64,000 nucleotides of DNA from the NCBI GenBank assembly GCA_037974665.1, contig CM075765.1, positions 58,690,247 to 58,754,246 on the forward strand, written 5' to 3'. How positions within the stretch are numbered: the stretch's first letter is position 1; the number at the start of each line of letters is the position of its first letter. The notes under the pieces are model-generated. The model did no database searches and was not told where the DNA came from. It worked only from the letters and a program-made list of their open reading frames with translations. The position numbers and the translations under genes were made by a program. Below, piece after piece: positions 1,430-63,899 of this stretch. The stretch is from Ehretia macrophylla (lineage: Eukaryota; Streptophyta; Magnoliopsida; Boraginales; Ehretiaceae).

Positions 1430-4236
1430 TGTAACACCCCGATCCCTCTCGAGACGGGAAGTTCTATTAATCAATCTAATCTCAACCCAATTCCAAACCC
1501 AGGAAATTTTTTTTTAGGGAAAACGGATAGAGTCTCCCCAGTTTCTAGGCAAAAATGCAAACCTGCGACAGCATATAAGTGGACCAGTACCTTGTCCAAC
1601 CATTCACAATTCCTCAAGGCCATCCAAGCCTCGGTTCTCAACAATTAAACACAACAAGTATATATATACATTTCCAAGTACCCAGGCTATTCTAACTCTT
1701 TCCTTTAGACATTACAAACATGCATTGAATCTAGATCTTATTAATCTATACATAAAACTTAAAAGACTTTTCTTTACACATTGATTTTATACATCTCATG
1801 AAAGTAAAATCTTTATATCTTTGACAACTCATGCCACATAGCACGCAAGGCAACTCTTCAAGCATGATCTACCACATAACCACGAACTTTCCAGCTAACA
1901 TGGTATTTCCTAAAATGTGGTAGCGAGGAGTGAGTATACACAACACGTATACTCAGTAAAGGCGAAACAGATATCGAGGTGGAGAGAAAGAAGATCGTGC
2001 AATGCAAATAAGATAGTTAAACCATATATCCAATAAGAACAACAATCAATATAAACAACAACACAATAAACAATTAAAGAAAGCATTAACGCAACCCATC
2101 AAAGCTATACCACACTTTGAAGGCTATGGTTCACTCATACGAGCAATGTACCATTTCACAAGAAATACATCAATCTCGAGCTTGATGTTGACAACGATGA
2201 CAATAAGCGCACAACCACCTTATAACTTCCACAGGGTGTACTTCGGATATACCCCGACACATCTACGACCCAAATCTCCCGGGGCAGCACCCCTAGCAAG
2301 AATGGGAATAGGACACAGAGCTAGAACAACCCAACCCTGGCAGCCCGAGACTGCCCAGAGAGGCCCATCACTCACTTGCCTGACACTATGCAATGCAATA
2401 CGAGATATAAGCAATAAACGAGCGATAGCACAAAAGTGCAGATAAGTGGCGATATACGAGATATCAAGCATTTACAATCAATATTAGCATTCAATTAACT
2501 TTTCAAGCATTATTATCTTTAATATCAACAATAACATCAATTAAACACGTAATAGCAGTTCAAACACGAAAACGACAAATATCACTATTCAATCTCTAAC
2601 TTCCAAAGGCCATTACAAGCAAACGAGCTACCGGATTACGAAACTGATTTCACTACCTTCACTTAGGCACTACAAGGCACGTTTCTATGTCACGAAATCT
2701 CACTTTCCCAACCGAAGCCCGAAAGTCTACCTATTGCATTTGAACTACAACTATGCTAATCGGTCGCTCAATCAACACCACAATAGCGTCAGAAGTGCTT
2801 CCATGCCCTCAATAGCAAAACCCCCAACTCAATTCGAGCACAGTCAACTCTTGGTCAAACGGCCCCTTTTCGTTTATTTGTCTAATTTCCAATTTAAGCA
2901 AAGGTCGGTCCGTTTTTATTGTACATTTTATCGTTCTAGCATTAATGGCACCTAACCAAACCAAGAAAACGCAATTCGGATCAAAAATCCAAAAATCTAG
3001 GGTTTTACTATTCAAAAATACTATTCATTATTTTTCTCCAATTTCAGTTTGCGTTTCTAGCTGTAAAAATTACTAAATAACTAACAAGCAATGCTCTACG
3101 AACCCTAAGGAAGTTATTTCAAGCAATAACAAGCATTATAACGCAATAAATATCAAATCTAAAAATTTGAAACAAAACTTAAATTCAAATAAAAATGCAC
3201 AAAAATGTGAAAACCCTCATAGAGATTGAAGGAGAGGACTCGCAAGAACCCTATCCTCGATTCTCTGTCAATTCTATGGAAGATTGGAGAATAAAAATGG
3301 AAAACAAATTTTTTTTTTCTTTTCCCTTGAACCTTCGGCCATCGGAGGGACTTGGGGAGAATTTAGGGAATTTTTTTTATGTCAATTTTTCCTTTGTTTT
3401 GCTTATTTAAAAGATTATTAAGGCTCAAGGGCATTTGGTAAAAAGGCAAGGTCAAATTCATGTTAAAAAATAGTCAAACAAGCTTATTTAATTAGCATTT
3501 AGTCTAATTCAAGTTAAAACAATGTAATTTTAATGAAAACCAACTAAAACTAGCTAAATTAAACTAAAAACACTATTTACGAAATCCGAGAAATATTCCT
3601 CTAACTCTCATTTTTTATGCGCTTCAATCAAACGATCAATAAACGATCACTACTAGAATGATAAACAATTTCTTAAAAATATAATTTTTGAAAAGTAATT
3701 TAGTTTAAAATTCACTCCGACTCAGAGTTACTTTTATCATTTAATTAAAAATCGAGTAATTAAATGCAAGAAAATAGAACCGATTATTAAAATAATCAAT
3801 ATTCATTTAAAAATAAATATTTTAGCTATTTCTAGAATATTTTAAAGAATTAAGAAATTAATACTAAGATACGAATGAACAAGTTAATATAAACACGTAA
3901 TCATATGCAATTAAATGCTAACATTTAAGATGACACTTAATTAAATACAAGAAAATAATTATTTAAAATATTTGAATATTTTTAAAAGAAATATCAAAAT
4001 AATACTTTAAATAATAGGTTAAGTAAAATAATCGATTAGTTAAATACAAGGAAATGAAACCTAGTATCAAATATAATAACATAGTTAATACTTATTTAAA
4101 ATAATTAATCCAAGTATTAGTTGAATACTTCTAAAAGAAACATGAAAATAGTGTGTAATGGATGATTTAACTAATTAAACACTTAATTAAATGCAGTCAT
4201 ATGCTATTCAATGCATGCCGGGTTCGGGGTATCACA
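1430..4236 (-). mobile_element. S1: solo LTR of the B/D family inside element A
   Basis: On the + strand it begins TGTAACACCCCGATCC and ends GGGGTATCACA, the reverse of a TG...CA LTR in minus orientation. It is 2807 bases long with no internal region. The flanks are ATTGT (1425-1429) and TTTGT (4237-4241), a near-perfect 5-base target duplication, and the integrase reading resumes just after it. It contains the family landmarks: the GC-rich block (about 2217-2400), the hairpin (1931-1955) and W-box-like GTCAA sites. A solo LTR usually arises by recombination between the two LTRs of a full copy. Confidence 0.88.
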
Positions 4237-7074: not shown

Positions 7075-7097
7075 TAGGCTTGTTTTATATAAGCTTA
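7075..7097 (+). promoter_or_regulatory. LTR hairpin, element A copy
   Basis: Arms TAGGCTT (7075-7081) and AAGCTTA (7091-7097) pair with one G-U wobble around a 9-base loop. The hairpin lies 24 bases before an acceptor-like ATAG and matches in position the hairpins of the other LTRs. It is less regular than the E copy. Confidence 0.5.
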
Positions 7098-13200: not shown

Positions 13201-13209
13201 CGCAATTGT

Positions 13210-14941: not shown

Positions 14942-14961
14942 TGAGCAATAGTTTTTGCTCA
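14942..14961 (+). promoter_or_regulatory. LTR hairpin, element 2 copy
   Basis: Arms TGAGCAA (14942-14948) and TTGCTCA (14955-14961) are perfectly complementary around a 6-base loop. The hairpin ends 27 bases before the acceptor-like CAG at 14988. Confidence 0.6.
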
Positions 14962-18171: not shown

Positions 18172-18196
18172 TGAGTATACACAACACGTATACTCA
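18172..18196 (-). promoter_or_regulatory. LTR hairpin, B left LTR
   Basis: Nine-base perfect arms TGAGTATAC (18172-18180) and GTATACTCA (18188-18196) surround a 7-base loop. Confidence 0.6.
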
Positions 18197-19217: not shown

Positions 19218-19237
19218 TGAGCAACCACTGTTGCCCA
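19218..19237 (-). promoter_or_regulatory. LTR hairpin, S2 copy
   Basis: On the + strand TGAGCAAC and GTTGCCCA pair around CACT; on the minus strand one pair is a G-U wobble. It has the same spacing to TTTCAG as in F. Confidence 0.55.
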
Positions 19238-26374: not shown

Positions 26375-26399
26375 TGAGTATACACAACATGTATACTCA
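26375..26399 (-). promoter_or_regulatory. LTR hairpin, B right LTR
   Basis: Perfect 9-base arms TGAGTATAC (26375-26383) and GTATACTCA (26391-26399) surround a 7-base loop. On the minus strand an ATTTCAG acceptor-like site ends 21 bases further. Confidence 0.6.
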
Positions 26400-34729: not shown

Positions 34730-34747
34730 TGGCGCCATTGCCGGGGA
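34730..34747 (+). other. Primer binding site of T (tRNA-Asp type)
   Basis: TGGCGCCATTGCCGGGGA is nearly identical to the complement of the plant tRNA-Asp 3' end, the primer typical of Tat/Athila-group gypsy elements. It stands just after the LTR. Confidence 0.8.
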
Positions 34748-35497: not shown

Positions 35498-35504
35498 TAT
35501 AAAA
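35498..35504 (+). promoter_or_regulatory. TATA box of the D1 LTR
   Basis: TATAAAA lies about 745 bases into the LTR, followed by an A/C-rich leader. It is conserved in D2 (39978-39984) and D3 (44457-44463). Confidence 0.5.
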
Positions 35505-36962: not shown

Positions 36963-36987
36963 TGAGTATACGTGTTGTGTATACTCA
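36963..36987 (+). promoter_or_regulatory. LTR hairpin, D1 copy
   Basis: Perfect 9-base arms TGAGTATAC (36963-36971) and GTATACTCA (36979-36987) surround a 7-base loop, 21 bases before TTTCAG. Confidence 0.6.
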
Positions 36988-37604: not shown

Positions 37605-39227
37605 GCTGCTATCAGAGCTTGTCTAGCTCATAAGCCGGGACAGGCACCTCGCCCTGGTGGGTAGTGGTCCTTGAATGTGTGCTTGTTAAGTGTGTCTTGA
37701 AAGAGTATGCTTGTATGAGAGAATGTGTGTCTTGACATGAATGTGTGCTCCTATGTGATATAGTTATGTGTTATATGTTAATTGTGTGCTAAGGGAAGTA
37801 AAGTGTTTAGTTGTGCATTGAATTGACTTATCGAATTGGCATTGTGAATCGAATTGATCTCGTGAATTGTTATTTGCTTGAAGTATTGTTTGTAATGTGT
37901 GTTTTAAAATGTCTTGAATTGATTATGTTATGCTTGACTTGATTGCCGTGCTTGAGTGACTTTGTTGAATAAACTATTTTGTAAACTTGCTTGCATAATA
38001 GTTTAAGGCATATGTATAACTGTGATATATTGGCATTCATACATGTCCTATTGAAATGGTAAGTATGTCCTCTTCCTCCCCTGAAGAAAGTGGTTCACCG
38101 CTGGTTTTTCAAGGTGTATGGATTGGCAGGAAATGAATGGCATTTGACTAGCCTTTATTTGGGAATTGGTGTTTGCTTTTGGAGCTCGGTTATTGGAAAA
38201 TCTCTATGGTCCTTCTCTGTGCTTAACAGTTGTGAAAGGGTAGCTTTCTCTTGGGGTTTTATTTGGTTATTCTTTGGAGCATTCTTTGGTTTCTTAATGG
38301 GTATTCTTTGAAGACTTCTGTTGGCATTTCTCGGTGGATTTGGCTATTGGGATTTTAATCGGCCTTACTGCACAATATTATCTATGGCATATATGTCTCG
38401 GTCTTTATTGGAGTGTTACTGGTATTCCTTATTGGAAATTCTTCAATGGCATTCTCTAGGATCCTTAGTGGCCATTTATTTAGCATTTACTTATTGGGTA
38501 ATTCTTGGTACCTTCTTACTGGAGCATTGTTCGAGTATTTTCTTTGGCATCCCTCAGTTGGTTTGGTCACTGGAATCCCTATCAGACTCATTATCTCATA
38601 TTACTTACGGTATTCTTTAGAATTCTTATCGGGCATTCTACTAGTATTTTTCCTTATTGGCATTTATTGGAAGATCCTACACTTGGAAATTTGTTGGGAC
38701 ATATTATCTTGTACTGTTTGCGGCTTCTCCTTTGGCCTTTCCACTCGGGGGAAATCTATACTTGCTGTTTGACTAAGATGTTGCGATAGGAACACAGTGA
38801 TTGGAAGATTTCATTTAGAGGTTGGCCTTGGGTATTCCTTCTCTATATTCCTTTACAGAATTTTCAGCTTGGTCTATTTACGGTAGTCAGTACTGCATGA
38901 GGTGCATCTACTCTGGCTATCTCTTAACTTTCTTATTGGGTACTTGTTAGACTTCCATTGAAGATTCTTAAATAGGGTATTCCTTCAGTGCTCTTCCTGC
39001 CATTAGTATGTGGTATTGATAATATCAACAGTATCTTTGCTTCAGTCTTTAGTTGGTATTTTCCCGGCATTCTTGATTGGAATTTCTATTCGGGATTTCC
39101 TACGAGCATTCTTATATATTATTCTACTCAGCAACCGATGAAGATTTATCAGAGTTGAATTTTAGATGATGCAGAGTCCTATTGGAAGAAGAATTGTGAG
39201 GACGCAATTGTTTTAAGGGGGGAAGGA
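37605..39227 (+). other. D internal region 1
   Basis: A primer-site-like TGCTATCAGAGC (37607-37618) and a polypurine tract (39211-39227) bound 1.6 kb of T-rich repeats around TTGGNATTCYTT (about 38150-38800). No coding motif is seen. It is nearly identical to internal region 2. Confidence 0.8.
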
Positions 39228-42082
39228 TGTGATAACCCGAACCTGTCATGCATTTAATGGCATCTAACCGCATTTAGTTGAGTGTTTAATTAGTTAAACA
39301 TCTATTTTTGCACTATTTCGAGATTTCTTCTTTAAAAAAAAAAACATTCAATAATTTTTATATTGATTAACTAAAGATTATCACTTATTTTTATTGTTTA
39401 TAGTAATTAGATTTATTTACTTATGTTCGATTAAGTGCCATTTTAAATATTAGCATTTAGTTGCATCTGACTACGTGTTTATGTTAACTAATTCTCTTGT
39501 ATCTTCACACTAGTTTCATAATTCATGGAAAATATTCTAGAAATAGTTAAATTAATTATTTTTAAATAAATATTGATTATTTTGAATGTTTTGATTATTT
39601 TAGTAATCGGTTTTAATTGTCTTGCATTAAAATCACTGGTTTCAAATAAATGAGGAAAGTAACTTCGAGCCGGAGTGAATTTTAAACTATTCTACCATTC
39701 TACTTTTCAAAGAATTAAAGTTTTATATTATTGCTTATCACTTTATTAGCAATCGATTATGGACTGTTCGATCGTAGAATTTCGAAAATAAGAGTTAGAG
39801 AAATATTTTTCGGATTTAGTGAAAAATGTTTTTAGCTTAATTTAACTAGTTTTAGTTGTTTTTCATTTAATTGCATTGTTTTAACTTGAATTGGATTTAA
39901 TGGCATCAAAATAAGCTTATTTGACTATTTTTAATTAAAGTTTGAATTTGCAAAAGACCAAAATGCCCTTGTCACCTTATAAAACAAAAAAACAAGTCAA
40001 AATTAGCTCAAAAACATTTCCCAAAATTCCCCCCATGTCCCCCCCAAGGCCGAGAATCACCAAGGGAAAAAAAAGATTTTGATTTCAAATTTCTTCTACA
40101 ATCTTGCATACAACTGCTCAAGGATCGCGGCTAGGGTCTTTGCAAGCCTTCCTCTTCGATCACTGTGAGGGTTTTCACGCTTTTGTGCATTTAAATTCGA
40201 ATTTGATTTTTGTGTCAAATTTTTAGATTTGATATTTATCGCGTTATAATGCCTGTTATTGCTTGAAATAGCTTGCTTAGGGTTCGTAGAGCATTGCTTG
40301 TTAGTTATTTAGCAATTTTTACGGTTGAAAATGCGTATTTGAAATTGGGGAAGAATATGAATAGTGAATTATGAATAGTGAATTATGAATAGTAAACCCT
40401 AGAATTTCGGATTTCGATCCAAATTGCGATTGATTTATTTGGATAGGTGCCATTAGTGATAGAATGATAAAATGTGAAATAAAAACGGACCGGCCTTTGT
40501 TAAAATTGGGAATTAGACTAAGAAACGTAAAGGGGCCGTTTGACCAAAAGTTGACCGTGCTCGAATTGAGTTGGGGGTTTCGTAATTGAGGGCATGGAAG
40601 CACTTTTGGCACTGTTGTGGCGTTGATGGAACGACCGATTAGCATAGCTGTAGTTCAAACGCAGTAGGTGGACTTCCGGGTCTCGGGTGAGAAAGTGAAG
40701 TTTAGTGACATAGAAACGTGCCTTGTAGTACCTGAGTGAATGTAGTGAAATCGGTTTCCTAATCCCGTAGCTCGTTTGCTCGTAATTGTCCTTAGAAGTT
40801 GGGGTTGAATAGTGATATTTGTTGTTTTCGTGTTTGAACTGCCGTTACTTGTTTAAATGTTGTTATTGTTGCTTATTATTGCTTGTTATGCTTGAAAAGT
40901 TAGTTGAATGCTAGTATTGATTGTGATTGCTTGTTATCTCGTTTGTTGTCACTAGTTTGTATTGTTGTGCTATCGCTCGTTTATTGCCTTGTATCGAGTC
41001 TTGCATTGCATAGTGTCTCACGCGTGAGTGATGGGCCTCTCTGGGTAGCCTCGGGTTGCCAGTGTTGGTTGCTCTAGCTCCGCTGCTATTCCCTTTCTCG
41101 CTTGGGTTGCCTCCCAGGGAGATTTGGGTCGTAGAATTGATGGATACTTCCGGGGTATTCCAAACTGGTGTTATAAGGTGGATGCGCGCTTATTGTCATC
41201 ATTGTCAACATCAAGCTCGAGATTGATGTATCGCTCGTGAAATGGTACATTGCTCGTATGAGTGAACCATAGCCTTCAAAGTGTGGTATAGCTTTGAATG
41301 GTTGTGTTAATGCTTTCAGTAATTGCTTATTGTATTGATTATTTGTTTTGATTGCTTATTTATCAATTATATTGCTTAACTGTCTTATTTGCATTGCACG
41401 ACTTTCTTTCTCTCCAATTCGATATATGTCTCGCCCTCACTAAGTATACGTGTTGTGTATATTCACTCCTCTCCACCACATTTCAGGAAAATGCCTTGTT
41501 AGCTGGAAAGTTCGTGATTACGTGAAAGTTCGTGCTTGAAGAGTTGTTTTGCGTGCCTATGTGGCTTGAGTGTCGAAGTTTGCAAAGATATGTGCTTTCA
41601 TATGTTGTATGTAATTTTTATTAAAAGAAATGTAATTTAATATAGCTAAGTAGTTGAGATAGATTGATAAGCTAGTTATGTATTCAGTAGTATAGTTAAC
41701 CTCGATGCATGTTTGTAATTGTCTAAAAGAAAATAGTGAGAATGGTATGATAGAATATTTAATGCAGTAGATTAGAATGGATTAAATGTCAAGTTTGAAT
41801 GTTCTTGTAAAAGATGTAATGAGATAGGTTAGTTTTAAACTGGAAATGTATATTTATATGCTGTGTTTAGTTGTTGTGAACCAAGGCTCGGATGGCCTTG
41901 AGGTGGTTGAATGTTTGGACATGGTATTGGTCCACTTATATGTTGTCGCAGGTTTTACATTTCGCCTAGAAACAGGGGAGACTCCGTCCGTTTTCCCTGA
42001 AAATTTATGCCCGGGTTTGGTTTGGGTTGTGATTAGATCGATTGATAGAACTCCCAGTCTCGAGAGGGATCGGGGTGTCACA
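39228..42082 (+). repeat. D2 LTR
   Basis: It is collinear with D1 with scattered substitutions, and the GC-rich block is at about 40989-41190. The hairpin region (about 41440-41466) is present but less regular than in D1. It serves as 3' LTR of the left unit and 5' LTR of the right unit. Confidence 0.9.
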
Positions 42083-43704
42083 GGTGGTATCAGAGCTTGT
42101 CTAGCTCATAAGCCGGGACAGGGTCCTCGGTCTGGTGGGTAGTGGTCCTTGAATGTGTGCTTGTTAAGTGTGTCTTGAAAGTGTATGCTTGTATGTGAGA
42201 TTGTGTGTCTTGACATGAATGTGTGCTCCTATGTGATATAGTTATGTGTTATGTGTTAATTGTGTGCTAAGTGAAGTAAAGTGTCTAGTTGTGCATTGAA
42301 TTGACTTATCGAATTGGCATTGTGAATCGAATTGATCTCGTGAATTGTTATTTGCTTGAAGTATTGTTTGTAATGTGTGTTTTAAAATGTCTTGAATTGA
42401 TTATGTTATGCTTAACTTGATTGCCGTGCTTGAGTGACTTTGTTGAATAAACTATTTTGTAAACTTGCTTGCATAATAGTTTAAGGCATATGTATAACTG
42501 TGATATATTGGCATTCATACATGTCCTATTGAAATGGTAAGTAAGTCCTCTTCCTCCCCTGAAGAAAGTGGTTCACTGCTGGTTTTTCAAGGTGTATGGA
42601 TTGGCAGAAAATGAATGGCATTTGACTAGCCTTTATTTGGGAATTGGTGTTTGCTTTTGGAGCTTGGTTATTGGCAAATCTCTATGGTCCTTCTCTGTGC
42701 TTAACAGTTGTGAAAGGGTAGCTTTCTCTTGGGGTTTTATTTGGTTATTCTTTGGAGCATTCTTTGGTTTCTTAATGGGTATTCTTTGAAGACTTCTGTT
42801 GGCATTTCTCGGTGGATTTGGCTATTGGGATTTTAATCGGCCTTACTGCACAATATTATCTATGGCATATATGTCTCGGTCTTTATTGGAGTGTTACTGG
42901 TATTCCTTATTGGAAATTCTTCAATGGCATTCTCTAGGATCCTTAGTGGCCATTTATTTAGCATTTACTTATTGGGCAATTCTTGGTACCTTCTTACTGG
43001 AGCATTGTTCGAGTATTTTCTTTGGCATCCCTCAGTTGGTTTGGTAACTGGAATCCATATTAGACTCATTATCTCATATTACTTACGGTATTCTTTGGAA
43101 TTCTTAAATGGCATTCTACTAGTATTTTTCCTTATTGGCATTTATTGGAAGATCCTACACTTGGAAATAAGTTTGGACATATTATCTTGTACTGTTTGCG
43201 GCTTCTCCTTCGGCCTTTCCACTCGGGGGAAATCTATACTTGCTGTTTGACTAAGATGTTGCGGTAGGAACACAGTGATTGGAATATTTCATTTAGAGGT
43301 TGGCCTTGGGTATTCTTCTCTATATTCCTTTACAGAATTTTCAGCTGGGTCTATTTACGGTAGTCAGTACTGCATGAGGTGCATCTACTCTGGCTATCTC
43401 TTAAATTTCTTATTGGGTACTTGTTAAACTTCTATTGAGGATTCTTAAATAGGGTATTCCTTCAGTGCTCTTCCTGCCATTAGTATGTGGTATTGATAAT
43501 ATCAACAGTATCTTTGCTTCAGTCTTTAGTTGGTATTTTCCCGGCATTCTTGATTGGAATTTCTATTCGGGATTTCCTACGAGCATTCTTATATATTATT
43601 CTACTCAGCAACCGATGAAGATTTATCAGAGTTGAAATTTAGATGATGCAGAGTCCTATTGGAAGAAGAATTGTGAGGACGCAATTGTTTTAAGGGGGGA
43701 AGAA
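42083..43704 (+). other. D internal region 2
   Basis: The primer site TGGTATCAGAGC (42085-42096) matches the methionine-tRNA type exactly. The polypurine tract lies at 43688-43704. The same non-coding TTGGNATTC repeats as in region 1 fill it. Confidence 0.8.
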
Positions 43705-44841
43705 TGTGATAACCCGAACCTGGCATGCATTTAAAGGCATCTAACCGCATTTAGTTGAGTGTTTAATTAGTTAAACATCTATTTTTGCACTATTTCGAGA
43801 TTTCTTCTTAAAAACAAAAAACATTCAATAATTTTTATATTGATTAACTAAAGATTATCACTTATTTTTATTGTTTATAGTAATTAGATTTATTTACTTG
43901 TGTTCGATTAAGTGCCATTTTAGATATTAGCATTTAGTTGCATCTGACTACGTGTTTATGTTAACTAATTCTCTTGTATCTTCACACTAGTTTCATAATT
44001 CATGGAAAATATTCTAGAAATAGTTAAATTAATTATTTTTAAATAAATATTGATTATTTTGAATGTTTTGATTATTTTAGTAATCGGTTTTAATTGTCTT
44101 GCATTAAAATCACTCGGGTTTCAAATAAATGAGGAAAGTAACTTCGAGCCGAAGTAAATTTTAAACTATTCTACCATTCTAATTTTCAAAGAATTAAAGT
44201 TTTATATTATTGCTTATCACTTTATTAGCGATCGATTATGGACCGTTCGATCGTAGAATTTCGAAAATAAGAGTTAGAGAAATATTTTTCGGATTTAGTG
44301 AAAAATGTTTTTAGCTTAATTTAACTAGTTTTAGTTGTTTTTCATTTAATTGCATTGTTTTAACTTGAATTGGATTTAATGGCATCAAAATAAGCTTATT
44401 TGACTATTTTTAATTAAAGTTTGAATTTGCAAAAGACCAAAATGCCCTTGTCACCTTATAAAACAAAAAAACAAGTCAAAATTAGCTCAAAAACATTTCC
44501 CAAAATTCCCCCCATGTCCCCCCCAAGGCCGAGAATCACCAAGGGAAAAAAAAAGATTTTGATTTCAAATTTCTTCTACAATCTTGCATACAACTGCTCA
44601 AGGATCGCGGCTAGGGTCTTTGCAAGCCTTCCTCTTCGATCACTGTGAGGGTTTTCACGCTTTTGTGCATTTAAATTCGAATTTGATTTTTGTGTCAAAT
44701 TTTTAGATTTGATATTTATCGCGTTATAATGCATGTTATTGCTTGAAATAGCTTGCTTAGGTTTCGTAGAGCATTGCTTGTTAGTTGTTTAGCAATTTTT
44801 ATGGTCGAAATATCGTATTTGAAATTGGGGAAGAACATGAA
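43705..44841 (+). repeat. D3 LTR, left part, interrupted by E
   Basis: It is collinear with the first 1.1 kb of D1 and D2, including the TATAAAA box, and stops at the E insertion inside the TGAATAGT cluster. Its remainder must lie beyond the window. Confidence 0.9.
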
Positions 44842-46714
44842 TGTGAAACCCCACTTTCCTGCTTATCTCGTTCTACGTGTTATACCTCGTTTTGCGTGCA
44901 TATGATCTGTTTATGTGCTATAGGACCTATAAAGTTATAATTTTGATGTCAATACTCCTAATACGTGCTAAATGTGCATTCATGAAATTTTCATCAAAAA
45001 CGGAGTCAGAAATTTTATCGTCGATTTTCAGTGAATAGTGTTTTCGAAACACGTCCGCTATAATTTTGAAACTGGTCTTTTTAACCCTTCTAGACCTAGT
45101 CCACGGACTTTAATAGACCTGTGTTTGATGAAAACGGTTTTAAAATCGGCTTAAGAATTTATTAGGGTTTTTACACCGACTTTTGCGAAAATCGAGTTTT
45201 AAGCCGACTCGGGTGAAATTGTTGAATTGTAAAACTTCTTGTCACCTAAAAATAATCCACTTGAGATATCTTGGGGGTTGCATAACTATTTTTAATTTGG
45301 TGAGCTTAAAAATGCAATTAAAGTCATTAAAAACACAAAAATACCTATTAAAATAACTTTGACTTTAATAAATTAATTTACCTTATAAGCTAATGTCCTC
45401 AACACACACTCACACAACACAAAAACACCATCACACACACACACATTGCCGAGAGAAAAGAGGGAGAAAAGAGAAGAGAAAAACTCAAGCTTTCAATCCA
45501 ATTTTTCAAAGAAAAACCTAGTTTTTGTCCGTAGAACTTCGCACCGACTTGGATTCTGCTTGTTGGGCACGCATAGCACGCATTTCTAGGCTTATATCGC
45601 ATCTAAGGTGAGAGAAAAATTCTAGATCTCAAAATGTCATTTTTGTGTTTTTGCGTATAAATGAAGATTGAACCGTTAGAATTGAAATCTGATGATAGAT
45701 TATTGCTCCTTGCATGCTAGGGATCATTATATACTAATACTACGAGTTTATGTCGGATATAGCATAATTTTTATTTTCCGGGTATTTAATTTTGATTAAA
45801 ATGTTCAAAGTTGAATTAAATGAGTTGTGTTGATCGAAATCGATTGCCGTCGATTTCTAAATACTTGATAATTACGTGTTAGCGCTGTTGTAATGCCGAA
45901 TTTTCGATTACATTGTTTGTGTGAAAATCCAGAAAATCCAGCCATGACATCTTAGGATTTTAGGGTTATCGGGCATGATTTGGAGGGGTTATGGTGGATT
46001 TCCGAGAGGGCTAATGTAGTAGGTTGAATGGGTGAGTGATAGGAACTGATTTGGCAATGTTTGGATTAGTAGATTGTAAGTTATGAATTTTAGAAGTTTA
46101 GGTTGTCATTCTTTAATTTCTTGAACGATGCCTTTAGATGGTTGGGTAGTGTTCGAGTGATGAATGGTGAGTTGTTGTTGAGTAATTTAAAGTTTAATTA
46201 TGTATATTATGCATGTCCGGTTAGATGGCCTACTTTGTCATCTAACTACGTTGTTTGTTGTTTAATTTAATATTGATGTTATATTGATGTTATTGATTGA
46301 TTATTATTGAATGCGGGAATCGGGCACTCTTGTTGCTGATCTCCCAATTGATTGATTGATTGATTGATGATTGATGAATATGGAGTCTTGGTATGTGTGT
46401 GCCACCTCTCGGGCAGCGTCGGGCTGTCGGGTTGATAACGGCATGACTGCCATAGGCTACCCCCAGCTCGCATGACGGAGGTGTCATGGAGGGAGGGGCT
46501 AGTGAGGTACCTCGGGTGCGTGAGTAATGGGGAGTTATAAGAAGAACGGTTGAGATCGTGATGGCGTTTGGAGCTACACCAAATAGAGTATCCTTATTGA
46601 TTGGTTATATAGTTATGTGATGATAGCTTTATTTATGTTGTTGTGTGTTTACTTGCTCAAAGGACTAAATCCAAGGAGCGTAGTGAATACTGTCGAGATC
46701 TATCGGATCCTCAC

Positions 46715-46736
46715 TGGGCTTATGTATATAAGCTCA
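46715..46736 (+). promoter_or_regulatory. LTR hairpin, element E copy
   Basis: Arms TGGGCTTAT (46715-46723) and ATAAGCTCA (46728-46736) pair over nine positions with one G-U wobble around GTAT. Confidence 0.6.
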
Positions 46737-46762
46737 CTCTCTATTATTGCATGTTTTCAGGT

Positions 46763-46861
46763 GTGCTTTCACAAGATTACGGGTACGTGCCTCCTGAAGA
46801 GGAGAATGTGGAAAACGTGCCTTTCGTGGATGAGTCATATGTCCCTGAGTCTTATCCATGA
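46763..46861 (+). other. Short acidic open frame in the E LTR
   Basis: It begins two bases after the acceptor-like TTTTCAG and includes SQDYGYVPPEEENVEN and, near its end, VDESYVPESYP. The frame is also open upstream of the acceptor to an ATG at 46643, so it could be read without splicing. Its differences from the element A copy include a nine-base in-frame indel. Confidence 0.45.
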
Positions 46862-47529: not shown

Positions 47530-50500
47530 ATGGCCGGTCGACCGAGAACCAGAGGTAGGCCTGAGATGACTGATGAGACTCCGAGTAACGTGGCACCGGG
47601 CCGTGACGGGGGTGATGACCGATTAGGAGCAGCTATGGAGCGGATTGCAGAGTTAGTGGCTAGTCAGGCACAGTTATTAGCGGGGCAGGCTGCCCAGAAT
47701 CAGGCTATGCAGGCTCAGCTTCTGAATATTCAGGGTGGTAACCACGGGCGTGGTACCCTGAAGGAGTTTTTAGGATATCACCCACGGAGATTTCAGGGGG
47801 AGCAGGATGATAGGAAGGCGGAGGTATGGATTAGCAAGTTGGAGAAGATTTATGATCCACTTGGCTATACTGATGAGCAGAAAGTCTCTTTTGCCGTGTA
47901 TTTGTTAGATGACGAGGCAGAGGAGTGGTGGCGCACGGTAAGGACTAGTTGGGCGGCACAGGGTATTCCTTATGTTTGGGGTACCTTTCTGATGGCTTTC
48001 CGAGCAAAGTATGTCCCGAGGATTTGCAGGGAACGGAGAGAGGCCGAGTTTCTAGCCTTGGTCCAGGGAGATGCTACAGTGGCTCAATATGAGGCCACAT
48101 TTACTCGATTGTCCCGGTATGCACCGGAGTATGTGGCAGACGAGGAGCGGAGGACTCGCAGGTTTATGTTGGGGTTGCGGCCCGAGATTCAGGATGTGAT
48201 GGCTCTGAATCGATATGATATTTTCACTGAGGCTTTTGAGGCAGCTTCTAGATTAGAGAAGAGGAAAGGGGATCAGATTGTCTCCAGTCAGCCTAGTAAG
48301 AGGCCGTATCAGCCACAGGGCCAGCAGGTTTTATATAGGCCTCCAGTACAGCAGGTTGTCTACAGGCCACCAGCCCAGCAGGGTTCTTATAGGCCACAGG
48401 GTCAGCAGAGTTACTATCGGCCTCAGTTTCAGCAGAGGCCATATCAGGTTCAGACTCAGTATAGGCCAGCGCAGTCTCAGGGTCAGTACAGGCCTAGTGT
48501 GGTGAGACCTCAGCAGCAGGCTGTATCAGCTGCTTCTTCAGCTTCTGGTTATTCTAGGGGCAGTGTTAGTGCCACATCATCGCAGTGTAATTACTGCAAG
48601 CGCCCAGGGCATGTAGAGTCCGACTGCAGGGTAAAGGCAGGGACATGTTTGGGTTGTGGTAGCAGCGAGCATAGGGCGGAGGATTGCCCTAAATATGCGA
48701 GGACTGAGGGTCGGGCAGCGACTCAGGGTTACCAGGGTAGGCCTACGGGCAGTGTACCACAGCAGCAGCGGGTTCAGGCTCGGGCTTATGCAGTTGACTT
48801 AGAGGAGATGCCTGAGGAGACTGCAGTTGTGGAAGGTAACTTCCTTATACTTGATCAACTTGTTAAAGTGTTGATTGATTCTGGTGCTACGCATTCTTTC
48901 ATTACTCCTGCTTGTGTGCAACGTGTTAAATTGCAACCTGAAAGATTGCCTTATGTGGTTGAAATTAGTACCTCTTTGACTGATAAGTATGTTACTGGCT
49001 TAGTATGTAAGGATTGTATAATACATGTTAAGGGGCATAATTTTCCTTCGGACCTTATTTTATTTCCTATCCGGGGGTATGATGTTATCTTGGGTATGGA
49101 TTGGCTTTCTAAGTATGATGCCCAGTTGAACTGTAGAACCAAGGTAGTACAGTTTCGTTTGCCAGATCAGCCAGTAGTTGAGGTAGCGGGTAACCGGGGT
49201 GCTAAGACGAGTTTTGTTATCTCAGCAACTAAAGCCGTTAAGTTGGTGAGTAAGGGGTGTTCGGGTTATCTAGCTTATTTGATCAACAAGCCATCTGATA
49301 AGCTACAGCTAGAGGAAGTCCCTATTATCCGGGAATATCCTAATGTATTTCCCGAGGAGTTGCCAGGGTTGCCGCCTGAGAGGGATATAGAGTTTGTGAT
49401 TAATCTTGTTCCCGGTACTCAACCTATTTCTAAATCGGCGTACCGGATGGCACCAGCTGAGTTGAAGGAGTTGAAGACTCAGTTACAGGAGTTGTTGGAG
49501 AAAGGATTTATTCAGCAGAGTTCTTCACCTTGGGGAGCTCCTGTTTTGTTTGTGAAGAAGAAGGATGGTACTTTGAGATTATGTATTGATTACCGTGGTT
49601 TGAATCAGGTGACCATCAAGAATAAATATCCTTTGCCACTGATTGATGAGTTGTTTGATCAACTTCAGGGAGCCAAAGTCTACTCTAAGTTTCATTTGAG
49701 GCAGGGGTATTATCAGCTTCGGATTCGTACGGAGGATGTTCCGAAGTCTGCCTTCAGAACTCGGTACGGGCATTATGAGTTTGTTGTTATGCCTTTTGGT
49801 TTGACTAATGCACCGGCAGCATTCATGGATCTTATGCATCGAGTCTTTCAGCCGTACTTGGACCAGTTTGTGGTGATTTTTATTGATGATATCTTGGTCT
49901 ATTCTAAATCTGAATTGGAGCACGAGCAACATCTACGGCTTGTATTAGAGAAGTTGCAGGAGCATCAGTTGTTTGCCAAGTTCAGCAAATGTGAATTTTG
50001 GCTGCAAAGGATTTCTTTTCTTGGCCATGTTATTACACAGAGTGGTATTTCTGTAGATCCCACTAAGGTTGAATCGGTGATGTCTTGGAAGCGGCCAGAG
50101 AGTGTTACTGATGTCCGTAGCTTTCTTGGCTTGGCGGGTTATTACCGTAGGTTTGTCAAGGACTTCTCAAAGATTGCGGGGCCACTATCTAAGTTGACTC
50201 AGAAGCGGACTAACATTAATTGGGACGAGAAGTATGAGAGTGGATTTCAGGAGTTGAAAAAGAGGTTAACTACCGCTCCAGTACTTGCTCTACCAGAGGG
50301 GACCGATAATATGGTCATTTACAGTGATGCATCCAAGGAGGGCTTGGGATGTGTTCTTATGCAGGATGGCCGAGTTATTGCCTATGCTTCTCGAAAGTTG
50401 AAGCCTTATGAGGTGAATTATCCGACTCATGATCTTGAGTTGGCAGCAGTTGTCTTCGCACTGAAAAAGTGGCGTCATTATCTGTGGGGCAGTAAGTTCG

Positions 50501-52293
50501 AGATTTTCACTGATCATAAGAGTCTTAAGTACTTATTCTCACAGAAGGAGTTGAATATGCGCCAGCGGAGGTGGATGGAGCTTCTTGGAGATTATAATTG
50601 TTCTATCAATTATCTGCCTGGAAAGGCAAATGTTGTGGCAGATGCTCTTAGTCGGAAGGCTAGTAATTCTTGTTTGGCTGTCAAGAAGTGGGAGGTTCTT
50701 GAGGAGTTTAGTTATTGGAGACCAGAGTTGACTCAGGTTGGGGTGATGTGTTCACATCTCCGTATTCAGCCTTTATTGTTATCTCAGATCAGGGAAGCTC
50801 AGCAGCTTGATGTTAAACTTCAGAAGATCAAGGATCAGATCACTGATGATCAGTCTGACTTAAAGTGCATGAGGATGGTATTCTTCGGTTTCGGAACAGG
50901 GTTTGTGTTCCCGATGAACCGGGCTTGAGACGAGGTATTCTGGAGGAAGCTCATAATTCTAAATATACTATTCATCCCGGTGGAACCAAGATGTATCGGG
51001 ATTTGAAGCAACATTACTGGTGGAACAACATGAAGAGGGAGGTTGCTCAGTTTGTGTCTAGATGTTTGACTTGTCAGAGAGTGAAAGCCGAGCATCAACG
51101 ACCAGCAGGTTTGCTTCAGCCGTTGGCTATACCAGAGTGGAAATGGGAGCATATTACGATGGACTTCGTCACAGGGTTGCCTAGATCACCGAGGGGTAAT
51201 GATGCAGTTTGGGTTGTCGTGGATCGTTTGACGAAGACAGCTCATTTTTATTGCAATGAGGTTAGGAGATGAGGTTACAAAGTTGACGGACCTCTATCTG
51301 GATCAGATTGTTAGACTTCACGGTATTCCATCTAGTATTGTCTCTGATCGAGATCCTCGATTTACTTCTCGTTTGTGGGAGAAACTTCAGGAGACTTTGG
51401 GTACTCAGTTGAACTTCAGTACCGCGTATCATCCACAGACCGACGGTCAGTCTGAGCGGACTATTCAGATTCTGGAAGATATGCTTAGGGCTTGTGTTCT
51501 GGACTTCGGGAAGAACTGGGAGAAACATCTACCACTTGCCGAGTTTGCCTATAACAATAGTTATCAAGCTACTATTGGGATGGCACCTTTCGCAGCTCTT
51601 TACGGTCGTAAGTGCCGTTCACCTTTATATTGGGACGAGGTAGGAGAGATGAAGACTATTGATCTGACTATTATGCCAGAACTTCTTGAGAAGATCGAGA
51701 ATGTTCAGTTGATCAGGCAGAGAATGCTTACGGCGCAGAGTAGATTCAAGAGTTATGCTGATAAGCGTCATCGAGACTTGGAGTTTGCAGTTGGAGATCG
51801 GGTTTTCTTGAGATTGTCTCCTCGAAAGGGGTTTGTTCGTTATGGTAAAGGTGGTAAGCTGAGTCCGAGATTTGTTGGGCCGTTTGAGATTACTGGCAGG
51901 GTTGGTAAGTTGGCATATCGGTTGGCTTTACCGGAGAACTTCTCTAATGTCCACGATGTGTTTCACGTGTCTAATTTGCGGAAATATAATCCGGATCCTT
52001 CTCATATTCTTGAGCCAGAGCCGTTACAGCTTCGAGAGAATTTGACTTATGACGAGCGTCCGATTCGTATTCTAGATCAGATGGACCGAGAGTTGAGGTC
52101 GAAGAGGATTCCGATGGTTAAGGTGTTGTGGAAGCATCACGGCATTGAGGAAGCTACGTGGGAGAGACGAGATCAGATGCAGCAACAATACCCAGATCTA
52201 TTCCGTACATCAAGTAAGAATTTCGAGGACGAAATATCTATAAGGGGGGGAGAATGTGAAACCCCACTTTCCTGCTTATCTCGTTTTACGTGA
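47530..52293 (+). pseudogene. Element E gag-pol, about two breaks
   Basis: I chose the ATG at 47530 (MAGRPRTRG); the frame is open 21 codons further upstream. Parts in order are Gag (about 47755-48285), a repetitive Q/Y/R/P linker (about 48300-48510), two CX2CX4HX4C zinc knuckles (about 48585-48690), protease (IDSGATHSF near 48880), RT (about 49480-49980, FIDD near 49880), RNase H (about 50310-50660), integrase (zinc-binding head about 50945-51085; core with TMDF, SDRDPRF and TDGQSER about 51150-51470) and a chromodomain (about 52070-52205). The reading ends 39 bases inside the 3' LTR. It would serve virus-like particle assembly, reverse transcription and chromatin-targeted integration. It is broken in about two places. 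Confidence 0.92.
52240..52254 (+). other. Polypurine tract of E
   Basis: A run of A and G (ataaggggggggagaa-like) stands directly before TGTGAAACCCC of the 3' LTR. Confidence 0.8.
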
Positions 52294-53872
52294 TATACCT
52301 CGTTTTGCGTGCATATGATCTGTTTATGTGCTATAGGACCTATAAAATTATAATTTTGATGTCAATACTCCTAATACGTGCTAAATGTGCATTCATGAAA
52401 TTTTCATCAAAAACGGAGTCATAAATTTTATCGTCGATTTTTAGTGAATAGTGTTTTCAAAACACGTCCGCTAAAATTTTGAAACTGGTCTTTTTAACCT
52501 TTCTAGACCTAGTCCACGGACTTTAATAGACATGTGTTTGATGAAAACGGTTTTAAAATCGGCTTAAGAATTTATTAGGGTATTTACACCGACTTTTGCG
52601 AAAATCGAGTTTTAAGCCGATTCGGGTGGAATTGTTGGATTGTAAAACTTCTTGTCACCTAAAAATAATCCACTTGAGATATCTTGGGGGTTGCATAACT
52701 ATTTTTAATTTGGTGAGCATTAAAAATGCAATTAAAGTCATTAAAAACACAAAAATACCTATTAAAATAACTTTGACTTTAATAAATTAATTTACCTTAT
52801 AAGCTAATGTCCTCAACACACACTCACACAACACAAAAACACCATCATACACACACACATTGCCGAGAGAAAAGAGGGAGAAAAGAGAAGAGAAAAACTC
52901 AAGCTTTCAATCCAATTTTTCAAAGAAAAACCTAGTTTTTGTCCGTAGAACTTCGCACCGACTTGGATTCTGCTTGTTGGGCACGCATAGCATGCATTTC
53001 TAGGCTTATATCGCATCTAAGGTGAGAGAAAAATTCTAGATCTCAAAATGTCATTTTTGTGTTTTTGCGTATAAATGAAGATTGAACCGTTAGAATTGAA
53101 ATCTGATGATAGATTATTGCTCCTTGCATGCTAGGGATCATTATATACTAATACTACGAGTTTCTGTCGGATATAGCATAATTTTTATTTTCCGGGTATT
53201 TAATTTTGATTAAAATGTTCAAAGTTGAATTAAATGAGTTGTGTTGATCGAAATCGATTGCCGTCGATTTCTAAATACTTGATAATTACGTGTTAGCGCT
53301 GTTGTAATGCCGAATTTTCGATTACATTGTTTGTGTGAAAATCTGGAAAATCCAGCCATGACATCTTAGGATTTTAGGGTTATCGGGCATGATTTGGAGG
53401 GGTTATGGTGGATTTGCGAGAGGGCTAATGTAGTAGGTTGAATGGGTGAGTGATAGGAACTGATTTGGCAATGTTTGGATTAGTAGATTGTAAGTTATGA
53501 ATTTTAGAAGTTTAGGTTGTCATTCTTTAATTTCTTGAACGATGCCTTTAGATGGTTGGGTAGTGTTCGAGTGATGAATGGTGAGTTGTTGTTGAGTAAT
53601 TTAAAGTTTAATTATGTATATTATGCATGTCCGGTTAGATGGCCTACTTTGTCATCTAACCACGTTGTTTGGTGTTTAATTTAATATTGTTGTTATATTG
53701 ATGTTATTGATTGATTATTATTGAATGCGGGAATCGGGCACTCTTGTTGCTGATCTCCCAATTGTTTGATTGATTGATTATTGATGATTATTATGGAGTC
53801 TTGGTATGTGTGTGCCACCTCTCGGGCAGCGTTGGGCTATCAGGTTGAAAACGGCATGACTGCCAGAGACTA
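52255..53872 (+). repeat. Element E 3' LTR, left part
   Basis: It is nearly identical to the 5' LTR up to the GC-rich block, where F is inserted. The donor-like CTAAGGTGAGAG recurs near 53020. The part with the hairpin and acidic frame lies beyond the window. Confidence 0.9.
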
Positions 53873-54382
53873 TGTCACGCCCCGACCCAACCCCCAAGCT
53901 AAAGGTTAAGTCCGGACCCGACACACGGACAGAGTCTCCTCTGTACCGTGGACATTCTAAAAACCTGTAAACACTTAAACAAGGTCTCTACAACACATAC
54001 AAGCTTAATTTAATTAAACAATAAAGCTATAAGGCCATCCGAGCCTTATAGTACACAATATCTCCAAAACACACAAGCATGCAAGAACTGGTTGTCAGCA
54101 TAGACTTATAATCATTACATTCTAGGAAATCAATATAACAACTTAAAGAGTAGAGCATTCTACATTAACCATCCACTCACAAGCATGCAAGGAAATAAGG
54201 CAAGAATAAAAGTTATTACAGATCATAGACTTACAAAGTTACAACCCAACCATCTAATCTTCGACTTATACAACAAGCATGTACAAAGCCCTTGGGCTAC
54301 AAAATAGTACATAAAGTAATCAGAGAAGTCTTCCACATAGCAGCAAAAATCATTAACCACCTCAAGTTATCAGACACAGCAA

Positions 54383-54456
54383 CTAAGGTAAAGGCTCGGT
54401 CTGAACTTCTTCTTCCTCAACTAAATCAACAAGCTGGGGATCACCCTCAGCGTCTC
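54383..54456 (-). other. Short acidic open frame, F 3' LTR
   Basis: It starts just after a minus-strand TTTCAG and reads DAEGDPQLVDL, then VEEEEVQTEPLP and stop. It is identical in the partner LTR. No start codon is evident. Confidence 0.45.
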
Positions 54457-54476
54457 CTGAAACAGATATCGAGGTA

Positions 54477-54496
54477 TGAGCAACCACTGTTGCCCA
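54477..54496 (-). promoter_or_regulatory. LTR hairpin, F 3' LTR
   Basis: Eight-position arms TGAGCAAC and GTTGCCCA (+ strand) surround CACT, with one G-U wobble in the minus-strand RNA. TTTCAG ends 20 bases further. Confidence 0.6.
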
Positions 54497-59200: not shown

Positions 59201-61059
59201 GTCCCCGGCAATAAATCAATCATGAACTCTATCTCTCTATCAGGCGGTAACCCAGGTAATTCCTCAGGAAAGACCCCCGGAAACTCCCTCACGATAGGTA
59301 CATCAGTCAATTTCAGTTGATCCCCAGGTTGATTAATCAAATAAGCAAGATAAGCCTCACAACCCTTGCTTAATAATTTAGATGCCCTGATAGAAGAAAT
59401 AATAGGAGTTCCCGTAGATTTTCTACTACCAACTATTTTAAGTACAGGCTGGTCAGGCATCTCTAGATACACAATCTTCTTTCTACAATCAAGCTGGGCA
59501 TAATATTTACTTAACCAGTCCATCCCCAATATAATCTCAAAGTCATTGAAGGGTAGGATAATCAAATCAGCAGGAAAAACACGACCTTCAATAAATATGC
59601 TACATGCTCTGCAAATAGACCTAGTAACAAACTTCGGACCCATAGGAGTATAGACCACAATCTCATGCAACAGTTTATCATGTTTCAATTTAGCATTTTG
59701 TGCACAAGTAGGAGTAATAAAAGAATGCGAAGCCCCGGAATCAATTAAAACCTTAACTGATTGATCATTAAGAAGAAAAATACCTTCTACCACAGCAGTA
59801 GTGTCCGGAAGCTCCTCGGCATCCAAAGCAAATACTCGGGCCTGGCCTCGTGGTGGTGGTGCTGCAGCTGGGGCCCTGGTCTGAGAGTTCTGAGCTGATG
59901 TCTGACCCCTAGGGTTCTTAAATTTCTGACAGTCTTTAACCCTGTGCTGATCACTGCCGCAACCTGTACATTTGTTATGTTTCTTCCAACAAACATCCTC
60001 AGTGTGGCCCTGACGCTGACAGAAGCTGCACTGCTGGTGACGTCTTGCAACAGTGCCTCCCGAAGGAGCTCTGTAAGTAGAGGTAGCTGAACTACCCTGC
60101 TGCGAACGGGAAACTGCTGGACGGAACTGACTCTGAGTCTGACTCTGAACTGGTCGTGCCTGAGTCTGAGTAGGCCCTGTGTAACTCTGAGTCTGTCTCG
60201 GCTGCGAACTCTGACCAACTGATACAGCTTGCCCCTGGTACCCTTGACTCTGAGACTGAAACCGTTTACTCGATTGACTGGTCTCGGCTAATACATCGGC
60301 TTTCCGTTTCTCATATCTCGAGGCAGCTCGGACTACTGCAGCATAGTTAGGAAAATCATTTGAAGACAAGTTCAGCATAATATCTCTCCTCAAACCCATA
60401 ATGAACCTCTGAATCTTGATGTCCTCCGGCTGAATTAAAGCTGGTGCATAACGGGAAAGCCGGGTAAAAGTAGCCTCGTATTGATCTACCGTCATACTTC
60501 CCTGCCTCAAGTTTATGAACTCAGTCTGTCGCCTCTCGCGGGCAACTACCGATATATACTTGTCTCGAAATTCTCGGACAAAGTCGGCCCACGAATGATG
60601 ACCTCCCTCAGCTACCCATTTCTCACTGATGGTATTCCACCAATCTTCAGCATCACCCTCGAGAAGGAAAGTAGCATAAGTAATCTTCCTGTCATCATGG
60701 CACTCCAATATCTCTGCCACTCTCTCGAACTTTCTTAGCCACATTTCAGCTTTTATATCGTCCGGCTCCCCAAAGAAAGTATAAGCCCCATGATGTATAA
60801 ACCGATCATACAGATTACCTCCAGTAGGACCACTACCTCCAGCTCTCGCAGCCTGATTACCTGCAACGACCCCTGGCTGACCCTGTTGTGTAACAAACTG
60901 GGCGATAGTGTTCATGGCTGTGGCCATCGTGGCCAAGATCTGTGCAGTGCTCGGCTCTTGAACCTGCGGTGCATTTTCGGCTACCTCAGCTTCTTGCCCT
61001 TGTACCCCCTCGGGTTCTCCACCAACATTCGGATTATCAGCACGACGGCGAGGCCCCAT
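56287..61059 (-). CDS. Element F gag-pol polyprotein, open throughout
   Basis: It has 1590 codons from ATG (MGPRRRADN) at 61059. Domains by rough residue are: Gag 80-260 ([13 protein letters not shown]); Q/S-rich linker 265-335; zinc knuckles 344-357 and 364-377; aspartic protease with DSGA at 440-443; RT about 650-820 with FIDD at 774-777; RNase H about 920-1030; integrase head with H1132, H1139, C1169, C1172 and core with D1202, D1263, E1299 (D,D35E spacing); C-terminal chromodomain about 1505-1550. The frame ends 78 bases inside the 3' LTR. The single fused frame implies that Gag and Pol are made as one polyprotein, as known for many chromoviruses. The chromodomain suggests targeting to marked chromatin. 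Expression is not shown. Confidence 0.95.
56365..56380 (-). other. Polypurine tract of F
   Basis: On the minus strand it reads TTTAAGGGGGAGAGGA, next to the 3' LTR and inside the gag-pol reading frame. Confidence 0.85.
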
Positions 61060-61919: not shown

Positions 61920-61993
61920 CTAAGGTAAAGGCTCGGTCTGAACTTCTTCTTCCTCAACTAAATCAACAAGCTGGGGATCACCCTCAGCGTCTC
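61920..61993 (-). other. Short acidic open frame, F 5' LTR
   Basis: Same reading as in the 3' LTR: DAEGDPQLVDL followed by the EEEE tail and stop. Confidence 0.45.
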
Positions 61994-62013
61994 CTGAAAC
62001 AGATATCGAGGTA

Positions 62014-62033
62014 TGAGCAACCACTGTTGCCCA
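62014..62033 (-). promoter_or_regulatory. LTR hairpin, F 5' LTR
   Basis: TGAGCAAC (62014-62021) and GTTGCCCA (62026-62033) surround CACT; same structure as in the 3' LTR. Confidence 0.6.
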
Positions 62034-63899
62034 GTGAGGGATATAGTCCCGGGGCGTGCAATGCAACAGATAACACAATTACACAACAATAACACTTTAA
62101 CAATTTAAGAATCAATGAAAACTTGAATAACCAGACAATTAAAAGGATACATTTCAACAATCCCCTATACACCAATCTTCACTGGTCTTCAATCACGATC
62201 CACGAACCACGAGCACGATCACGATAAGCCGGCATAACCCCAATCACTCCAGTGGGTGTACTCCGGATGTACCCCGAATCCTACGACCCAACATCCCCTG
62301 GCAATTTCCGGACCAGGCGAATGAGGGAATAGGGTACGGAGTTTGAATATCCACCGGCAAGCCCTCTGCCGCCCAGCCGATATTCAACACATCTGCCCCG
62401 ACACTATGGTTGCGCAACCACTATGCAATGCACTTAACGATGGCAAGTTAATAGCAATAATATAAGCATTTACACATATGAGGATCAACAAAGTAGGTTG
62501 ACCTCGTTGCAATTAGGATAGAAGCAAATATAGAAGTTAATAAGCAGTTTACAAATGAACTTATACCATATAAGCATAGAATCATTTCAAAAGCTCCAAA
62601 TCAATTTAAAATCATATATAAACACTCATGAAGTCATGCCGTGGGTTTAGAATTGTGAGACAAACGAAATTGCACTTAAACCCCTTTATTTTACATACTA
62701 TTTCTCTTCCAAACCCAAGTTAATGATTTCATTTTCAAAAGAAACTCTCCCTACCTTCTAACTAACCCCCAAGGTACCCTTTCAACCCTCGAACTCAATC
62801 AAATGCTCGCGTTTACCCCGAAAGCCCCAATTTCCCTCTTTTGGCTTTAAACTACTACTACATTGTCCGGGCTTCAACTAAGGGATATCAAGGCATCTAT
62901 AGCACCTAGGTAGCTTAAGGAAACTAGAATTGAAGCCCGAATCCACCCGGAATCGCATTAACCCCAAAAGCCCCAACTTAAAGTCGGCTATTTTCCATTT
63001 TTAGGCGATTTAAGGGCAATGCAAGTGCACGGGGTTATTTAATTATCTTCACTAGTACCTAAGGCATCATTTAGAAGCATTAATTCAAGCCAATTCGAAC
63101 AATTACACAAAACCCTAAAAAAAACGTCACTATTCACCCTAAGAATCAAACTATCGATTTCTACCGTTTAATTCATGAAACAATAGCATAAAAGTGGTCT
63201 CTACTATGTGTACACAACATATATAAGCTTATTTGAGTCTTGCAATAGCATTAAACATCATTTCTAACAAATCAAGAAAATAGCAATTATTTCAAAATGC
63301 GAAATTAAGCCATGAAATCCCTCACCACTACGCGTAGAAGCACCTAGGGACCTTGCAAACACCCTACACTAGTTGCTCAAGGCTTGTAGAGGCTTGGATT
63401 GGAGGCTTGGTGAGCAAAATTCTTCTCCTTTTCTCCCTAGCTGCTGTCGGGTTTGCCTCTGTCCTGTTCAGCTTTTATTTTTTTTTTTTGTTGTGATAAA
63501 TGAGCTAAAGTGTGATATAATAAGGGTTTGAGTTGAGGTGGGGTTCTTTGGGCGCTTGAATGGTTTAATATAATACGCGTAGTAAGCTTTAAAAGCGAGT
63601 CTAAGGGGTGACACATTGGTTAACTAATTAAATCTATAAAGTTATTACGTAACACTATTCACTTGACTTCTAAAATTATTTTCTAAACGAGCCTTCCTAA
63701 CGTCTTAAGCTCAAAAGCACATTTTTCCCACTACTTTTACAATTAATATGATTTAATAAAAATGCTAATTAACTAATAGAAAGCATTTTAAAAACGGAGT
63801 GAATAGTAGTCACAAAGTCAATTAATAAGGCATAGAAGTAAATGCACAAACAAGGGATGCAACAGTAATTAAATGCATGGCAAATTCTCGGGCGTCACA

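Follow-up and report, generated by a model that had tools for sequence, protein, structure and literature searches.

A covarying hairpin at the end of a likely LTR intron in chromovirus-type retrotransposons of Ehretia macrophylla

The LTRs of several chromovirus-type Ty3/gypsy families of Ehretia macrophylla carry a hairpin whose two arms covary, placed shortly before an AG. In one lineage, F, this AG is the splice acceptor that ends a leader intron, and the intron has been precisely lost from three genomic LTRs. These results come from a window of 64,000 nucleotides (contig CM075765.1 of assembly GCA_037974665.1), complemented by its flank and by searches of the whole genome. We consider it likely that the LTRs of these families have an intron that ends in the hairpin, that splicing takes place both in the leader and from gag to the 3' LTR, and that the stem tunes the use of the branch point.

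A sequence-only reading of the window had described the hairpin before an acceptor-like AG in every LTR family that it named. We located it in all of them, always in the sense of the LTR, with a single D copy showing damaged outer pairs (Table 1). The same kind of stem was found by our scan of the 200-kb right flank in a family absent from that reading, family G, which has TGAGTTC-ATAA-GGACTCA at the same place before CAG/G. The distance from the end of the hairpin to the AG is 18-19 nt in G, 20 in F and S2, 21 in D, B and S1, 24 in E and A, and 26-27 in element 2; the spacing of 20-27 bases given earlier thus holds for most families and widens to 18-27 nt once G is included. The 5' flank of the hairpin has the motif YCCTCRCT in common among families, with exceptions such as CCTTTACT in B. 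The A of a CTYAY motif is the final base of the stem in E, A, element 2, F, D, and G, and lies 18-27 nt upstream of the AG, which we take, from the plant consensus, to be the position of a branch point. In three of the fetched copies (A18, A12b, and el2c), the acceptor CAG is replaced by CAA.

Table 1. Positions of the main features in the window. A slash within a sequence marks a splice junction.
Feature	Position	Strand	Remarks
Hairpin, E	46715..46736	+	TGGGCTTAT-GTAT-ATAAGCTCA; from sequence, alignment, and fold
Hairpin, A	7075..7097	+	
Hairpin, element 2	14942..14961	+	
Hairpin, F, 5' LTR copy	62014..62033	-	
Hairpin, F, 3' LTR copy	54477..54496	-	
Hairpin, S2	19218..19237	-	
Hairpin, B	1931..1955	-	
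Hairpin, S1	18172..18196	-	
Hairpin, additional D-type	26375..26399	-	
Hairpin, D1	36963..36987	+	
Hairpin, D copy	41441..41465	+	damaged outer pairs, TAAG with TTCA
Branch-point-like motif CTCAC, E	46733-46737 (entry 46732..46737)	+	A at 46736 is the final stem base
Leader exon 1, E, 5' LTR, last 170 nt	45438..45607	+	no ATG; followed by donor
Predicted leader intron, E, 1153 nt	45608..46760	+	donor GTGAGAG, acceptor CAG, 40 ATG
Exon 2, coding part, E	46761..46861	+	phase 1; VLSQDYGYVPPEEENVENVPFVDESYVPESYP then stop
Leader exon 1, F, 5' LTR, last 170 nt	63326..63495	-	junction base 63326; joined to exon 2 in L041-L043
Leader intron, F, 1332 nt	61994..63325	-	missing from three F-lineage genomic LTR copies
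Exon 2, coding part, F, 5' LTR copy	61920..61993	-	DAEGDPQLVDLVEEEEVQTEPLP then stop
Exon 2, coding part, F, 3' LTR copy	54383..54456	-	predicted acidic Gag tail; putative use from gag
Gag-end donor, E	48830..48841	+	GTGGAAG/GTAACT; last exon base 48835
Gag-end donor, F	59778..59789	-	GTAGAAG/GTATTT; last exon base 59784
End-of-pol donor-like site, E	52214..52219	+	GTAAGA; partner in a rival explanation

The gag pieces of E and F match Retrotrans_gag and Ty3_capsid above cut-off, which identifies their Gag as that of Ty3/gypsy elements, and SH3_Tf2-1 is above cut-off in both. A candidate chromodomain (PF00385), a domain expected at the end of the integrase, gives E-values of 5.3e-4 and 2.8e-4 in E and F, with 20.3 and 21.2 bits that stay below the curated cut-off of 25.1, and is unlisted with longer pieces; the integrase core (rve) reaches 21.7 bits in E, below its cut-off of 32.6. 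A Tekay-like placement for both elements would be a guess from LTR length. F is a young element (53872-63899) inserted in the 3' LTR of E; the hairpin copy of that LTR lies beyond the window (L009:149-209). The F lineage is abundant, with at least 150 near-identical matches scored out of 27,293 first-look candidates, many with an open frame of 1593 residues.

The leader intron was delimited by a donor-like motif. In 8 of the 8 LTRs selected for counting (E, A, Ax, F, element 2 and its relative el2b, G2, and D1), GTGAGRG is found 1.15-1.63 kb before the acceptor, and the form AAG/GTGAGAG of E recurs in A and Ax. B was left out because its leader GT is lost, and S2 because its leader exon is unclear: it has GTGAGGG 640 nt before the hairpin, yet ATGs precede this motif. 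Exon 1 was taken as up to 170 nt before the donor. With this definition exon 1 holds 4 ATG per 1294 nt (11.0 expected) and the intron 281 per 10,339 nt.

We searched the entire 1.58-Gb genome with probes for the exon-exon junctions. The F probe, a 30-base pattern allowing up to 3 mismatches, found three places, its reversed-pattern control none, and a second probe built from the third place found the same three. Two of these places are the LTR pair of a single C5 element and share 98.3% identity across 589 nt; the third is an intronless LTR on C7 (84% identical over 422 nt). The C5 element has GAGTG on both flanks, a 5-bp target duplication, and its LTR spacing is 6211 nt versus 7537 in F, a difference of 1326 nt that approximates the intron of 1332 nt. 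Exon 1 runs directly into exon 2 at the predicted GT-AG boundaries, and the junction would read alike if shifted by one base. As expected of a retrocopy, this element lacks the intron between the predicted boundaries and is flanked by a target-site duplication, and absence of the intron from both LTRs is the trace that reverse transcription of a spliced RNA leaves. The corresponding probes for E, element 2, D, and G revealed no intronless copy in the genome. Hence, the earlier suggestion of a 3' splice site in the leader holds in the F lineage, where three genomic LTRs carry the junction; for E, element 2, D, and G, where the probes came back empty, we infer leader splicing.

The sequence-only reading did not recognise the coding nature of the exon past the AG, nor the match between this acceptor, as present in the 3' LTR, and a gag-end donor. 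Read in phase 1, exon 2 gives 20-33 residues, including the joining glycine, followed by a stop; the nine tails counted contain 6-9 acidic and 0-1 basic residues. The exon is under purifying selection in four groups, with pN/pS of 0.37 in E/A (8 copies), 0.40 in G (7), 0.24 in the F group (4), and 0.16 in element 2 (3). The variable columns at the first, second, and third codon positions number 16/13/21 in E/A, 7/10/11 in G, 4/2/10 in F, and 2/1/8 in element 2, which makes the third-position excess clear in F and element 2, smaller in E/A, and hardly visible in G. The A copies in this count include A14 (early stop), A12b (usual stop missing), and two with a damaged acceptor (A18 and A12b). The D, B, and S1 elements, which may be non-autonomous, keep the hairpin and have no acidic frame. 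Two other ways of translating the frame were rejected. If the acidic frame began in leader exon 1, a stop at the junction would close it in E, element 2, and G2. Translation of unspliced RNA would run into a stop within the hairpin of G, and the distance between hairpin and AG varies by one base among the copies of element 2, and likewise in G.

The donor at the end of gag emerged from the comparison of five gag-pol copies (E, Ax, F, element 2, and G), which we count as four groups because E and Ax belong to the same one. GT is present in all five copies at 55 columns; AG/GT[AG] is present in all five at a single one of these, and the next best column has it in three. The conserved donor is GAAG/GTA within VEG codons, immediately upstream of the protease, in phase 1 in every copy, and it joins as glycine. 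Two of the 32 all-glycine columns are always GGT, and two of the 42 all-glutamate columns always GAA; this site is both. GAAG/GTA is also found in the intronless C5 element, and Pfam places a zinc knuckle before the donor in E. Two weaker conserved sites in pol also fall in phase at a glycine, so the choice of the gag donor rests on strength and place; its score was computed with hand-set weights drawn from no data set, and the column count, which uses no weights, repeats the point. A strong donor-like site at 47283, after the primer-binding site, was set aside as a tRNA complement, presumably that of the initiator tRNA.

A donor at the gag-protease border is thus present in all five copies, and in the nine tails counted a stop follows the acceptor after 20-33 residues, as in Gag-only RNAs of the copia, BARE1, and EVD kind. 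The gag-pol copies of G and Ax carry other stops and are therefore damaged elements. Joining the gag donor to the acceptor of the 3' LTR would produce Gag extended by an acidic tail, without Pol. The gag-junction probes for F and E found no copies in the genome, and none are expected because such an RNA, devoid of the polypurine tract and of the start of U3, would rarely if ever retrotranspose.

These empty gag probes, together with the fact that the leader junction is the sole one found in genomic copies, would also fit a situation in which the elements splice the leader intron but produce no Gag-only RNA, the acidic frame being a relic or being translated by another route. We find this unlikely, as it is at odds with the purifying selection that four groups show on the frame, the conservation of GAAG/GTA, and the in-frame stop that exon 1 has at the junction in E, element 2, and G2. 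It is still less probable that the acidic exon is a tail of the integrase, produced by splicing to the acceptor of the 3' LTR from a GTAAG donor where pol ends, next to the polypurine tract. This idea was attractive from E and A alone: the motif is kept as GTAAG or GTAAA in E, A, Ax, F, and element 2 and is GTAATA in G, and the joined frame stays open in E, A, and Ax. However, the junction leads to an immediate stop in F (TGA), in element 2 (GAG TAG, in a damaged copy), and in G (AGG TGA), where 12 out of 12 additional fetched copies have the same phase, and the idea was dropped after these stops were seen. Splicing of the gag donor to the acceptor of the 3' LTR is thus the reading we retain.

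The hairpin itself was compared with chance in the window and the 200-kb flank (264 kb in total). We scanned for stems pairing T[AG][AG]G with CT[TC]A, with at least 7 pairs, followed by [CT]AG. There are 41 such sites, more than expected by chance, versus 11-23 in each of ten Markov-1 controls; by count of the listing, 29 belong to the LTR families described here and the other 12 lie outside them. A covariance model derived from 13 hairpin sequences, which match it by construction, gives 37 places at E ≤1 in the same 264 kb. Rfam 15 has no match at gathering score over the hairpin, and its only matches in the window are three tRNAs.

The alignment of the hairpins, named A2, has 13 rows (11 distinct) and 8 pairs; the inner-pair cells of G were set aside because the alignment gaps its inner stem. 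Of its 72 cells, 98.6% are paired, a value attained in none of 500 shuffles, and structures slid along the alignment pair just 25-43%. Three pairs have changed on both sides, and the count of pair types shows no excess over shuffles (220/500). When a single stem is taken per family group (E, element 2, D, G, and F), the inner three pairs match in 15 out of 15 cases, against a mean of 8.6 when the arms are re-paired. Only 2 of the 120 re-pairings reach 15, namely the true one and a swap between two groups that share the 3' arm. The compensatory change first proposed from the letters of the window is thereby confirmed within one genome, the independent changes being few with no more than five family groups. 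All 7 sequences folded have the hairpin in their minimum-energy structure, at energies that are not striking (z from -0.33 to -1.93, E and A being ordinary), and its case therefore rests on covariation.

The paired letters might instead act as DNA, for example as a palindromic site bound by a protein, as the arms are palindromic and overlap a TATA-like stretch in E and A. We hold this to be very improbable: one pair is G-U in 5 of the 11 distinct rows of A2, which a DNA palindrome would not favour and which therefore speaks for RNA, and the sense orientation is fixed ahead of the acceptor. Least probable of all is that the complementarity was inherited by chance from a common ancestor and is under no selection, as the few family groups and the ordinary folding energies of E and A would allow, given the inner pairs, the shuffles, and the persistence of the hairpin in D, which has no acidic exon.

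The window has other features. Between the end-of-pol GTAAG and the polypurine tract there is a further paired stretch, the letters of which differ by family: AATTTCG-AGGA-CGAAAT in E (52219-52237, +), AATTGCG-TGGG-CGCAATT in F (about 56382-56400, -), AATTGCG-TGAG-CGCAATT in element 2 (about 13190-13215, +), and GAATTTCG-GGA-CGAAATTC in most G copies. Stretches of D-type LTR are arranged in tandem at 34743-44847, with a spacing of ~4478 nt and some parts present three times. The three tRNA matches lie close together on the forward strand (29402-29473, 30971-31044, and 31872-31954), two of them called Cys and Asn by ARAGORN and the third by Rfam alone; this cluster is possibly organelle DNA.

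We propose that the hairpin would be a mark of the 3' splice site of an LTR intron in several chromovirus-type Ty3/gypsy families. In the 5' LTR, the ATG-poor exon 1 would be joined to exon 2, removing an ATG-rich and structured leader intron of ~1.15-1.63 kb. Because the LTR stands at both ends of the element, one acceptor could serve two introns: in the 3' LTR it would be reached from the gag-end donor upstream of the protease, yielding Gag with an acidic tail of 20-33 residues. A single gag-pol frame could in this way give rise to both Gag alone and Gag-Pol. Since CTYAY closes the 3' arm, the hairpin may tune splicing through its cover over the branch point, which it would hide or pace, slowing splicing and leaving enough unspliced RNA for the genome and for Pol. 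The leader intron, which would be kept in genomes only, is a candidate packaging region. The fuller proposition, that one LTR acceptor is used twice in a plant chromovirus lineage and that a covarying branch-point hairpin balances mRNA, Gag, and genome, seems to us evenly poised between true and false.

The leader intron has a second conserved block, for which RNAalifold predicts 25 pairs over 10 LTRs, 9 of them changed on both sides in at least one row. In E this block is at 46385-46575 (+); a matching block is found in A, element 2, F, S2, D1, B, and G, ~150-430 nt upstream of the hairpin. Its arms vary, for example GGGTAC...GTACACCC versus GGATAC...GTATTCC. It is apparently structured and may be considered a candidate packaging or dimer region that would differ between the genome and the spliced mRNA.

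Spliced retrotransposon RNAs have been described before, and we compare them here on the basis of the matched passages of the cited papers. In copia of Drosophila and BARE1 of barley, a single gag-pol frame is spliced to give an RNA for Gag alone, copia losing nearly all of pol (PMC3735527), which resembles the Gag-only RNA that we propose from sequence. However, both are Ty1/copia elements, those passages mention neither a conserved LTR-coded tail nor a hairpin, and the BARE1 intron has 104 nt, lies inside the frame, and is followed by a stop three codons on (PMC3735527). The shGAG RNA of EVADE (EVD) in Arabidopsis, from which alternative splicing removes the protease, is favoured in translation as a Gag RNA, in line with our proposal, but EVADE is again Ty1/copia and its frame shifts to an early stop; the review in question describes plant LTR elements as generally without introns, the exceptions being Ogre and EVADE (PMC12786077). 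Ogre and the centromeric retrotransposon CRR are, like the elements studied here, plant Ty3/gypsy with spliced RNA. Yet CRR reportedly loses rt and forms two frames, Ogre splices between two frames, and a Gag tail from the LTR is undescribed for either in these passages (PMC3735527, PMC6317226). The CERV RNA of Cer1 in C. elegans is also a spliced Ty3/gypsy RNA that joins pieces of the gag frame to a 3' coding part, but it has five exons and encodes a nuclear export protein of 517 residues (PMC10309623). In cDNA of a CRM4-derived repeat, a splice within a chromovirus LTR removes most of the UTR, as here, but the cDNA comes from maize tandem-repeat transcripts, and the passages describe no hairpin or coding exon (PMC3648361). 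Finally, SpIREs are integrated L1 copies of spliced element RNA and in this resemble our three intronless LTRs (L041-L043), but L1 is a LINE and not an LTR element (PMC5860796). We found no description of a hairpin at an LTR acceptor, nor of an LTR-coded Gag tail, among the matches listed from the open-licence PMC literature. Gag-only splicing is hence known in Ty1/copia elements, and what is undescribed among those matches is the hairpin at the LTR acceptor and the Gag tail encoded by the LTR.

Elements that carry gag and pol as a single frame must nevertheless produce Gag in excess. The splice site studied here probably lets the element trim the leader of its message and make extra coat protein, and the exact junctions that we provide can be searched for in long-read RNA. 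The analysis also places a coding exon inside LTRs, which are otherwise taken as non-coding. The intronless LTRs within a target-site duplication are a natural record of spliced element RNA that was packaged and reverse transcribed.
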